Origin: Chthoniobacterales bacterium
GTDB taxonomy: Bacteria; Verrucomicrobiota; Verrucomicrobiia; Chthoniobacterales; UBA10450
Length of the DNA: 38,165 bases
Assembly (NCBI GenBank): GCA_025934755.1
Contig: JAICWQ010000009.1
Coordinates: 1-38,165 of the forward strand
Direction of reading: 5' to 3'
Both the position numbers and the translations under genes were made by a program. Positions 2,910 through 5,267 of this stretch are shown here, piece after piece. How positions within the stretch are numbered: position 1 is the stretch's first letter; each line of letters opens with the position of its first letter. The notes beneath the pieces were generated by a model, which was given only the letters and a program-made list of their open reading frames with translations, was not told the origin of the DNA and searched no databases.

Positions 2910-3656
2910 TCACAACTTGAGATCGATTACACCATTTGATGCTACGATCGAATATTTGTCTTTCATATCTTCGAGTGGTCGCAAATCCACTGTTCCGCCG
3001 GCTGTTTCCACCAAAATCCATCCGGCAGCGATGTCCCACAAACTGATTCCGCGCTCAATGTAAGCGTCGAGCCGGCCGCAGGCGACGTAAGCCATGTCGA
3101 GCGCCGCGCTGCCGAGCACGCGACATTTGCGCGCGCGATGGAGCATTGTCTCGAAAAAGGGCAGGTTTGAATCGATCGACTGGTATGTTTTCGCTAATCC
3201 CACCGAAACCACAGCCTCGGAGAGTTCGGCCCGGTCGCTCACCCGGAAAGGCTGACCATTTAAACGCGGCTTCTCGCCTTTCTGCCCGGACCAGATTTCA
3301 TCGCGCATCGGATCGTAAATCACGCCGACGATGATCTCGCCTTTCCAGCGGAGCGCGATGGAAACGCAGAAATGCGGGATTCGGTAGAAATAATTGACGG
3401 TGCCGTCGAGGGGATCGACGACCCATTGATATTCGCTCGATTGGTCGCCAACGATTCCTTCCTCGCCATAAAGCGCATGCTCGGGGAATTGGTTGAGCAA
3501 CATTTTGGTAATGAGTTCCTGGGTCTGGACGTCGATGGCGAGTTTAATATCGTGGGCGAGCGCTGCGTTAACGTGTTGGGAATGGCCAAAGTTCTTGCGA
3601 AGCGATTGTCCCGCGGCACGGGCGGCGTTCTCGGCGGCGTCGAGATAGTGTTTCAT
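2910..3656 (-). CDS. suhB: inositol-1-monophosphatase family phosphatase
   Basis: Mg-dependent phosphatase of the IMPase/SuhB family that hydrolyses inositol phosphates or related sugar and nucleotide phosphates. Metal-binding motifs are in the usual order: GEEG (about residues 64-67), WVVDPLDGTVNY (Asp81, Asp84) and, near the C-terminus, SLWDIAAGWILVETAGG. 248 residues, typical length. The ORF track adds 23 N-terminal residues, but these are just the translation of an octamer repeat array (3674-3705), so I start at the internal ATG giving MKHYLDAAEN. Precise substrate cannot be told from sequence; the symbol is by family resemblance. Confidence 0.9.
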   Translation of the reverse strand: MKHYLDAAENAARAAGQSLRKNFGHSQHVNAALAHDIKLAIDVQTQELITKMLLNQFPEHALYGEEGIVGDQSSEYQWVVDPLDGTVNYFYRIPHFCVSIALRWKGEIIVGVIYDPMRDEIWSGQKGEKPRLNGQPFRVSDRAELSEAVVSVGLAKTYQSIDSNLPFFETMLHRARKCRVLGSAALDMAYVACGRLDAYIERGISLWDIAAGWILVETAGGTVDLRPLEDMKDKYSIVASNGVIDLKL

Positions 3657-3673
3657 GAAGAGGTTGAGACCGT

Positions 3674-3758
3674 GAGGAGTTGAGGAGTTGAGGAGTTGAG
3701 GAGTTGAGTGGTTCGGCCTCGACACTTTCTTCTCAACTCCTCAACGTCTCAACTCCTC
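3674..3758. repeat. octamer arrays in opposite orientation (suhB leader)
   Basis: Four perfect GAGGAGTT units run from 3674 to 3705. After a short spacer, the inverse orientation appears as AACTCCTC, AACGTCTC, AACTCCTC (3735-3758). The two arms can pair into a long hairpin in the 5' leader of suhB, between the terminator at 3764-3798 and the suhB ATG. Confidence 0.85.
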
Positions 3759-3763
3759 AAGGT

Positions 3764-3798
3764 AAAAAAACCGGGAGGAAAACAAGTTCTCCTCCCGG
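3764..3798 (-). terminator. rho-independent terminator
   Basis: On the minus strand a 9-bp stem CCGGGAGGA / TCCTCCCGG with a 10-nt loop is followed immediately by seven T residues. This is a textbook intrinsic terminator for minus-strand transcription arriving from coaB and the 19-residue peptide gene. It separates that operon from suhB. Confidence 0.92.
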
Positions 3799-3859
3799 GT
3801 TGAAGTTTGGGGTTTTGACTCCGAAAGATTTCCGGAATCGTTAGTTAGGCGAAGGGCGC

Positions 3860-3919
3860 TTAATGCCTTTTTCTTTTCTTCGCTTTACGTTTTGCTGCTT
3901 TCTTTTTTTTCTTAGCCAT
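3860..3919 (-). CDS. 19-residue Lys/Arg-rich peptide
   Basis: Too short for the ORF track. Minus-strand ATG to TAA encodes MAKKKKKAAKRKAKKRKRH: 14 of 19 residues are Lys or Arg and there is no acidic residue. A purine-rich GAAAGGGGGG lies 11 nt before the ATG and AGAAG is closer, either of which could act as a ribosome-binding site. Just upstream in the leader is a small hairpin with a GAAA loop. About 60 nt after the stop comes the strong terminator at 3764-3798. The gene sits 80 bp downstream of coaB on the same strand, so it may be the last gene of that operon or have its own promoter. It resembles lysine-rich tails of bacterial histone-like proteins and extreme basic ribosome-associated peptides, but I recognise no family. 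Nucleic-acid binding is an inference from charge only. Confidence 0.55.
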   Translation of the reverse strand: MAKKKKKAAKRKAKKRKRH

Positions 3920-3942
3920 TGACTTCTATTCCCCCCTTTCAG

Positions 3943-3956
3943 TCCGCTTTCGCGGA
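3943..3956 (-). other. GAAA-loop hairpin before the 19-residue gene
   Basis: On the minus strand TCCGC-GAAA-GCGGA forms a 5-bp stem closed by a GNRA tetraloop, 23 nt upstream of the peptide ATG. It may help define the 5' end or stability of that message; no known motif is claimed. Confidence 0.4.
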
Positions 3957-3999
3957 GTTTTGTGAAGAGTGGAATGACTTCACTTACCGCATGAATTCA

Positions 4000-4647
4000 T
4001 CACATGATTTTCTTTGTCAAACATTTTTCACGAACATTTTCAAAAATCTTTACCAGCTCGCGCGCGATAATTTTCTTGGGCGCGCGCGAAATTTTTTGAA
4101 TTCCGCCGTCGCGAAACAAAACGGTGACTTCGTTTTCATCACTGTCGATTGCAATGCGGGCATCGTTCGCAATCATGAGGTCGCAGTTCTTTTCACGAAG
4201 TTTCTTGAGCGCGTTCGCTTCGATGTTTTCGGTTTCAGCGGCAAATCCAACTGCGATGAAACTTCGATCTTGATTGGCAATCACGGCGAGAATGTCGCGC
4301 GTCGGCGTCAGCTCAAGCGAGAAATTGGAATCGCGCTTCTTAATTTTCTGGCTCGAAACGTTGGCCGGTTTGTAATCGGCAACCGCGGCCGACATCACCA
4401 GCACGTCGCAATTCTGAGCCTGACTTCGAAGGGCATCAAACATTTCGTCTCCGGTCGAAACCGAAATGAATTCGGCCGCGGATGGTGAAGACAGGTTCGT
4501 CGGGCCTGAAACCAAAATAACGTGGTGGCCGGCTTCGATCGCCGCTTCGGCGATGGCGTAACCCATTTTCCCGGACGAACGATTGGTCAGATAGCGAACG
4601 GGATCGATCGGCTCGCGGGTGGGCCCGGCCGTGACAAGAAATCTCAC
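4000..4647 (-). CDS. coaB: phosphopantothenate-cysteine ligase (CoaB domain protein)
   Basis: Second half of the usual CoaBC protein, here a separate gene. It joins cysteine to 4'-phosphopantothenate using CTP in coenzyme A synthesis. FLVTAGPTREPIDPVRYLTNRSSGKMG is the conserved start of the CoaB domain. ILVSGPTNL and SAAVADYKP follow, and the Lys-containing KIKK segment and VGFAAETE match the family. I start at GTG 4647, whose GTGA overlaps the coaC stop. The longer ORF (from 4713) only adds Arg-rich residues read out of frame through coaC. About 215 residues. The split falls exactly in the linker of fused CoaBC proteins. Confidence 0.9.
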   Translation of the reverse strand: MRFLVTAGPTREPIDPVRYLTNRSSGKMGYAIAEAAIEAGHHVILVSGPTNLSSPSAAEFISVSTGDEMFDALRSQAQNCDVLVMSAAVADYKPANVSSQKIKKRDSNFSLELTPTRDILAVIANQDRSFIAVGFAAETENIEANALKKLREKNCDLMIANDARIAIDSDENEVTVLFRDGGIQKISRAPKKIIARELVKIFENVREKCLTKKIM

Positions 4648-5267
4648 GCGATCAAATTTTCCTGTCGGGCGAGGAGAAATTCGGCGCGAAACGCGATGTC
4701 TTCGGTTTTCCAAAGACGACCGAGTCCTTCATAGCCGCAGGCCAGCATTCCTTCTTCGGGACCGATGAAGTCAACGCCGCGTGATTTCAACGTTGCCACG
4801 TTTTCAACCGTGGCCGGATGCGACCACATTTTCCCGTTCATGGCCGGCGCGATCAAAATTGGCGCCCGCGTCGCCAGGGCGATCGCAGCGAGGGGGTGAC
4901 TGGCCAGTCCGTGCGCGAGCTCGGCGATGACGTTCGCGGTCGCGGGAGCGATCAAAAGAAGGTTGGCGCGATCAGCCAGCTGAATGTGACCGGGGCGCCA
5001 GTTTTCCTTTTCGTCGAAAAAACTCGTCATCACTGGATTTTTGGAAAGCGTCTGCAAAGTGAGAGGAGTGATGAACTCGGTTGCGTCCGGCGTCATTACC
5101 GCGAACACCTGATGCCCTTGTTTCACCAGGAGACTCGCGAGCTCGGCCGATTTGTAGGCGGCGATGGAGCCGGTCACGCCGAGCACGACTGTTTTTCCGC
5201 CGCCCCGCATGCGGACCACTTTGCGCGCGCTGGGTTTTTCAGGTTGCCGGTTCGAATTCCGTTTCAT
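4644..5267 (-). CDS. coaC: phosphopantothenoylcysteine decarboxylase (CoaC domain protein)
   Basis: Flavin-dependent decarboxylase giving 4'-phosphopantetheine. VLGVTGSIAAYKSAELASLL is the FMN-binding start of the domain, with the catalytic His in HIQLADRANLLLIAPATANVIAELAHGLA. The PAMNGKMW motif (PXMNxxMW) binds substrate, and MLACGYEGLGR carries the active-site Cys of the flap. It ends at the point where fused CoaBC proteins continue into CoaB, and overlaps coaB by GTGA. A 20-residue basic leader precedes the domain and could be partly untranslated, since MRGGGKTVV is an alternative start. gmk ends 13 nt upstream. In many bacteria rpoZ lies between gmk and coaBC; no such gene is present here. 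Confidence 0.92.
   Translation of the reverse strand: MKRNSNRQPEKPSARKVVRMRGGGKTVVLGVTGSIAAYKSAELASLLVKQGHQVFAVMTPDATEFITPLTLQTLSKNPVMTSFFDEKENWRPGHIQLADRANLLLIAPATANVIAELAHGLASHPLAAIALATRAPILIAPAMNGKMWSHPATVENVATLKSRGVDFIGPEEGMLACGYEGLGRLWKTEDIAFRAEFLLARQENLIA

Follow-up and report, generated by a model that had tools for sequence, protein, structure and literature searches.

A lysine-rich mini-gene with a structured transcript is conserved behind gmk-coaC in Chthoniobacterales

Introduction

Downstream of coaB, a contig of a Chthoniobacterales bacterium carries a reading frame of 19 codons, most of them for basic residues. Does such a short and A-rich frame encode a protein, and if it does, what might the product do? 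Peptides of 19 residues lie below gene-calling cut-offs and are skipped by gene finders. An initial annotation, made from the letters of the 38,165-nt stretch (the window) alone, had proposed a Lys/Arg peptide gene with its own leader hairpin and terminator. We followed the element through the genomes of its family and order and analyzed its coding constraint, RNA structure, genomic slot and longer relatives.

Results

A Mini-Gene on the Minus Strand

All features of the element (window positions 3860–4020 and the 3′ flank) lie on the minus strand (Table 1); the initial annotation had the coordinates right but gave no strand. Translation of the minus-strand open reading frame (ORF) yields MAKKKKKAAKRKAKKRKRH, containing 10 lysines, 3 arginines and 1 histidine and confirming the earlier count of 14 basic residues in 19 (histidine counted). 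The purine-rich site seen upstream is the Shine–Dalgarno (SD) sequence AAAGGGGGGA, the GAAA-loop leader hairpin reads CUCCGC-GAAA-GCGGA, and the strong terminator, expected about 60 nt past the stop, begins 61 nt past it. The strand, a further hairpin upstream, a covarying hairpin in the 3′-UTR, a –35-like box and longer relatives of the 19-mer are additions to that description.

Table 1. Features of the mini-gene element and its neighbors in the window
Feature	Position	Strand	Evidence or remark
–35-like box TTGACA, conserved, in the 3′ end of coaB	4015..4020	–	TTGAC in 115/118 copies
Leader hairpin H1, GUGAAG...CUUCAC	3962..3983	–	Consensus fold, 31 family transcripts
Leader hairpin H2, (U)CCGC-GAAA-GCGG(A), followed 3 nt later by the GAAAGG motif	3943..3956	–	Stem in 117/118 copies
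SD AAAGGGGGGA, core of the near-invariant GCGGAYTGAAAGGGGGGA motif	3930..3939	–	Motif scans; usually one copy per genome
ORF, 19 aa, MAKKKKKAAKRKAKKRKRH, TAA stop included	3860..3919	–	Translation, family alignment, codon-position counts
3′-UTR hairpin H3, GAUUCCGGA...UUUCGGAGUC	3817..3839	–	Covariation
Intrinsic terminator, 12-bp stem CCGGGAGGAGAA/TTTTCCTCCCGG + 7 U	3764..3798	–	Consensus fold, pattern scan
Upstream neighbor coaB (PF04127), behind coaC and gmk	4000..4686	–	Family search
Downstream neighbor, inositol monophosphatase family (suhB-like)	2910..3656	–	Other families have different genes here

Coding Constraint within the Family

The 236-nt element had DNA matches in 76 of the 83 family genomes, the distant genera matching partly and mostly at the terminator end; coaB matched in 77 of the 83, its position relative to the element unchanged. 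An intact ORF with an ATG start was present in all 75 extracted family copies, which cover all 14 genera, and ended in KKRH, KKKH, KKR or similar. The ORF length in these copies varies from 16 to 37 aa, and every insertion or deletion comprises whole codons and stays in frame. The initial annotation had named the ORF, its start and the terminator behind coaB as the features to look for in relatives, and the ORF and its start are kept in all family copies extracted, the terminator core being recognizable in nearly all copies; the opposite pattern, a lost frame beside a retained terminator, did not appear among them.

We compared 157 pairs of equal-length copies and counted 250, 255 and 738 differences at the three codon positions, against 353, 285 and 398 expected, and 585 synonymous codon differences against 232 expected. 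The expected counts are those of the same changes placed at random, and the pairs are not independent of each other, yet the excess is large. The excess of third-position and synonymous changes indicates that the peptide is under selection, and on the sequence evidence the ORF at 3919–3860 is a genuine, protein-coding gene. A chance A-rich ORF between coaB and the terminator would suit the low-complexity coding sequence and a length under gene-calling cut-offs, but it would account neither for the synonymous excess in the family nor for the ATG-started, Lys-rich frame that follows a common SD in 118 copies across the order, and its probability is negligible. The earlier caution about low complexity is settled by the strong coding signal.

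Distribution across the Order

In a set with one genome for each bacterial or archaeal species, a scan for GCGGAYTGAAAGGGGGGA gave at least 80 stretches. The matches listed were from Chthoniobacterales, including Chthoniobacter flavus Ellin428, apart from about 14 unrelated ones of a chance-level kind. With one mismatch allowed, whole-genome searches of the order found the motif in 99 of 213 genomes and 27 of 45 genera; outside Chthoniobacterales, only two genomes matched. The gene is also present downstream of coaC in families f2, f4, f5, f7, f8, f9, f10, f11 and f12 and in one f13 genome, and the copies found in this survey often carry the motif in a variant form. No copy was found beside coaC in f3, in the single genome examined from f6, or in G209, a genome of 0.9 Mb. 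The layout noted in the window, of leader hairpin, mini-gene and terminator, is kept as one unit throughout the order. Two possibly related mini-ORFs, also Lys-rich, lie near coaC in genomes outside the order (G292, G264).

A Structured Transcript

The 236-nt stretch folds better than 200 of 200 dinucleotide shuffles (z = –3.57), and the consensus fold of 31 family transcripts yields both leader hairpins and the terminator, of which H1 and the terminator carry compensatory changes. In six sequences of this set, the closing pair of H1 has changed from G–C to C–G. The stem of H2 is 4–6 bp long with a variable loop, and between families CCGC/GCGG is replaced by the paired variants TCGC/GCGA, CTGC/GCAG and CAGC/GCTG. 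The covariation score of H2 (0.084 against 0.046; 0 of 500 shuffles) does not clearly exceed the slid-partner control, and the helix is supported mainly by its 84% of paired cells, against at most 48%, and by the paired changes across families. H3 is the best-supported helix of the transcript: compensatory changes affect nine of its nine pairs, with 40 double-changed cells, and the covariation score is 0.433 against 0.247 in shuffles (0 of 500), slid partners reaching at most 0.235. The terminator reads CCGGGAGGAGAA-CTTG-TTTTCCTCCCGG-TTTTTTT, and its core GGGAGRAG...CTYCTCCC is recognizable in nearly all copies; in the window's genome, the pattern GGGAGG-N6-20-CCTCCC occurs at this locus only.

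Across the order the SD is near-invariant (GAAAGGGGGGA) and lies 3 nt past the CCGC/GCGG hairpin. Farther upstream, TTGAC mostly precedes the SD by 80–100 nt. A simple sigma-70 scan of the window did not call the TTGACA box, and the –10 element is variable among copies and weak in the window.

These structures raise the question of whether the RNA itself is the functional product, with a trans-acting or sensor role for the hairpins, the near-invariant GCGGAYTGAAAGGGGGGA and the terminator, and a secondary role or a second function for the peptide. Such a regulatory RNA would fit the four conserved hairpins, the strong covariation of H3 and the tighter conservation of the leader motif than of the peptide. 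It fits poorly with a strong coding constraint that persists while the length shifts in codon steps, with a motif that contains the SD at a near-fixed spacing to the ATG in the order-wide copies, and with the Rfam search of the window, which gave no match above the gathering score at the element and returned only a tRNA. We regard it as a minor possibility, though one deserving some weight.

In some genomes, the promoter or leader contains one or two copies of the DnaA-box-like TTATTCACA together with near-matches (L271 in f11, L253 in f13, and L075, L082 and L089 in f1-g7), the repeats being spaced about 22 nt in f11. By their sequence, DnaA control of the mini-gene in some families is possible. 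A chromosome origin at the locus was rejected, as neither a 400-kb contig (G019) nor a 335-kb stretch (G168) had a clean sign change of GC skew.

Genomic Slot and Independence

Across Chthoniobacterales, the slot of the mini-gene is behind gmk-coaC(-coaB), and the gene on its other side varies. A convergent ruvB comes next in f5, and one f11 genome has an ilvN-like and then an ilvC-like gene there; these names were read from protein sequences and not assigned via family search. In f9 (genomes G144 and G153, loci L209 and L218), coaC and suhB flank a mini-gene that is turned around in place together with its leader and terminator. The inversion and the varying downstream gene show an independent unit for which coaB transcription is not required.

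They also bear on another reading of the window, where a series of Lys codons and then a terminator precede suhB, as in the leader peptide of a lysine/arginine attenuator governing that gene. The f9 unit, however, lies on the strand opposite to coaC and suhB, while f5 and the f11 genome have the convergent ruvB and the ilvN-like gene in place of suhB. The Lys codons form part of K/A/P repeats of up to 99 aa, and a conserved antiterminator pairing is absent from the consensus fold. An attenuator leader peptide would have its terminator ahead of a co-oriented, conserved operon, and the f9 inversion and the non-conserved downstream gene exclude a suhB attenuator; we consider this explanation extremely improbable.

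Several other features of the neighborhood were recorded. In Chthoniobacter and relatives (L118, L183, L178), coaC stands at the locus without an adjacent coaB, and the best coaB match of several Chthoniobacter-group genomes is divergent and on another contig. Short tandem and inverted repeats lie between genes of the window at 3673–3760 and 2808–2885, with TTGAGGAG units facing CTCCTCAA, and GATGTATC and GAATCGTT units. A degenerate rpoZ, a gene often found beside gmk, was ruled out, the omega matches being on other contigs; genome G000 has two omega (PF01192) matches above the cut-off (C14:7326-7454 and C109:7996-8118), neither adjoining gmk.

Longer Relatives Resemble H1-Like Proteins in Composition

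The 19-mer of the window is too short for profile searches, which require at least 20 aa. Across the order, the peptide varies from 16 to 99 residues and consists of K/A/P repeats; outside the window's family, AAKK/APAKK repeats make up its 29–99 aa, as in C. flavus, where the peptide has 41 aa (MATKKPAAKKPAKKLAAKKPAAKKTAAKKAAPKKKAAAKKK). The mean K+R content of the longer members is 33–58% per family, and the 118 copies contain in total two acidic residues and one aromatic residue or cysteine. Judged by these sequences, the 19-mer stands at the short end of a family of longer polycations.

Lys/Ala/Pro repeats, a variable repeat number and a near lack of acidic and aromatic residues are traits of Hc2/H1-like proteins, and all are present among the 118 proteins. 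An 89-aa member (G119) matched Pfam HC2 (PF07382; 6e-9, 36.7 bits against a cut-off of 40) and NCBIfam hist_H1_lk_Burk (NF038053; 5e-7, 30.1 against a cut-off of 80), in both cases below the cut-off, and the other members profiled against PF07382, NF038052 and NF038053 gave no match or a weak one. HC2 matches can stem from low-complexity composition alone, and common descent is not proved by them. In composition the peptides are like H1-like proteins, but with scores short of the curated thresholds they are not assignable to the named HC2 or BpH1 families. A protein-similarity search for further H1-like genes in the same genomes, with an idealized repeat as the query, did not recover the known copies either, presumably due to low-complexity filtering, and we found no described Verrucomicrobia H1-like micropeptide in the open-access literature.

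The size of chlamydial Hc2 (HctB, PF07382) likewise varies through Lys-rich repeats, and the protein binds both DNA and RNA (PMC2848022). Hc2 comes from the PVC superphylum, as do the bacteria studied here. The mini-gene peptides share with Hc2 and with BpH1 of Bordetella and Burkholderia (NF038053) the character of a Lys/Ala/Pro/Val repeat polycation of variable repeat number. They are shorter (16–99 aa, against 165–237 aa in Hc2 and 182–206 aa in BpH1), and their gene differs in its structured leader and in its fixed position behind gmk-coaC. The C-terminal KPAA tails of Pseudomonas AlgP and PhaF share the repeat composition and the expected intrinsic disorder; the AlgP tail is H1-like, and peptides derived from it bind DNA (PMC9239181). 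In AlgP and PhaF, the repeat is the tail of a larger protein, whereas in the mini-gene it is the entire protein.

The partner of the polycation could also be a polyanion other than nucleic acid, on polyphosphate or PHA granules as for the AlgP/PhaF tails. KPAA-like repeats are common to AlgP, which localizes to polyphosphate granules (PMC9239181), but the peptide has no granule-binding domain and lacks the N-terminal domain of AlgP, and granule genes are absent from the neighborhood. We consider a granule polycation improbable.

Size and K+R content similar to bS22, and a strong SD, would fit a ribosome-associated micropeptide of the bS22/eL41/bL37 kind, bound in an rRNA pocket. The bS22, eL41 and mS38 proteins are likewise very small, 60–70% basic (61% K/R in Borrelia bS22; PMC10618245) and often unannotated, as small basic ribosomal proteins can be. 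Unlike the mini-gene peptide, bS22 has a near-fixed length and a conserved motif. A motif of the kind KKRRKxKxxxHKRRKRxRxNRHKK, as in bS22/COX24_C (PF08213), is absent from the peptide and present in another ORF of the genome, MGSLKKRRKAKISKHKRRKRMRANRHKKRLRYKT (34 aa; G000:C109:11430-11516, L313), which matches bS22 chains in the Protein Data Bank (PDB), with E = 9e-4 for 7jil. This ORF is below the Pfam cut-off, and a match was found in 10 of the 10 genomes tested (equivalents L312, L314, L315 and L317–L320). With a bS22-like protein encoded at another locus of the genome, we conclude that the peptide is not bS22. A 37-mer from f8 matched no PDB chain, a conserved non-charged motif is absent, and a range of 16–99 aa is unexpected for a pocket-bound protein. 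The ribosome-associated option of the initial annotation is weakened by the separate bS22 and this length range, and we consider it unlikely.

Discussion

The computational comparisons show a conserved, coding and independently organized mini-gene with a structured transcript that, by its sequence distribution, has been inherited through Chthoniobacterales. Its most likely product, by analogy, would be a minimal H1/Hc2-like peptide, a polycation whose partner is nucleic acid or some other polyanion. We favor, as probable on balance, that the independently transcribed mini-gene makes a disordered Lys/Ala/Pro polycation acting on nucleic acid in the manner of H1, Hc2 or the AlgP tails. The nucleic-acid-binding micropeptide of the initial annotation thereby stands as the best-supported guess, by way of the longer H1/Hc2-like relatives, with the binding itself a prediction.

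Under the polycation model, the mini-gene would be expressed from its own unit, and probably strongly; by its charge, the peptide would neutralize and bridge DNA, RNA or both. Lacking a fixed fold, such a polycation would be little constrained in length. A more elaborate and rather doubtful reading would have a dual-function transcript particular to one order, in which a four-hairpin RNA has a regulatory role of its own beside the minimal histone-tail-like peptide, the peptide autoregulates via the leader, and DnaA-box-like sites contribute in some families.

The mini-gene would rank among the smallest bacterial protein genes with order-wide evolutionary backing, its histone-tail-like polycation spanning from about 90 to under 20 residues while its regulatory RNA frame is retained. 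As this case shows, genes far under annotation cut-offs can be exposed by conserved leaders and terminators. Chthoniobacterales include very abundant soil bacteria, and chromosome packing in this major uncultured group could be affected by a nucleoid- or RNA-coating peptide that has been overlooked.
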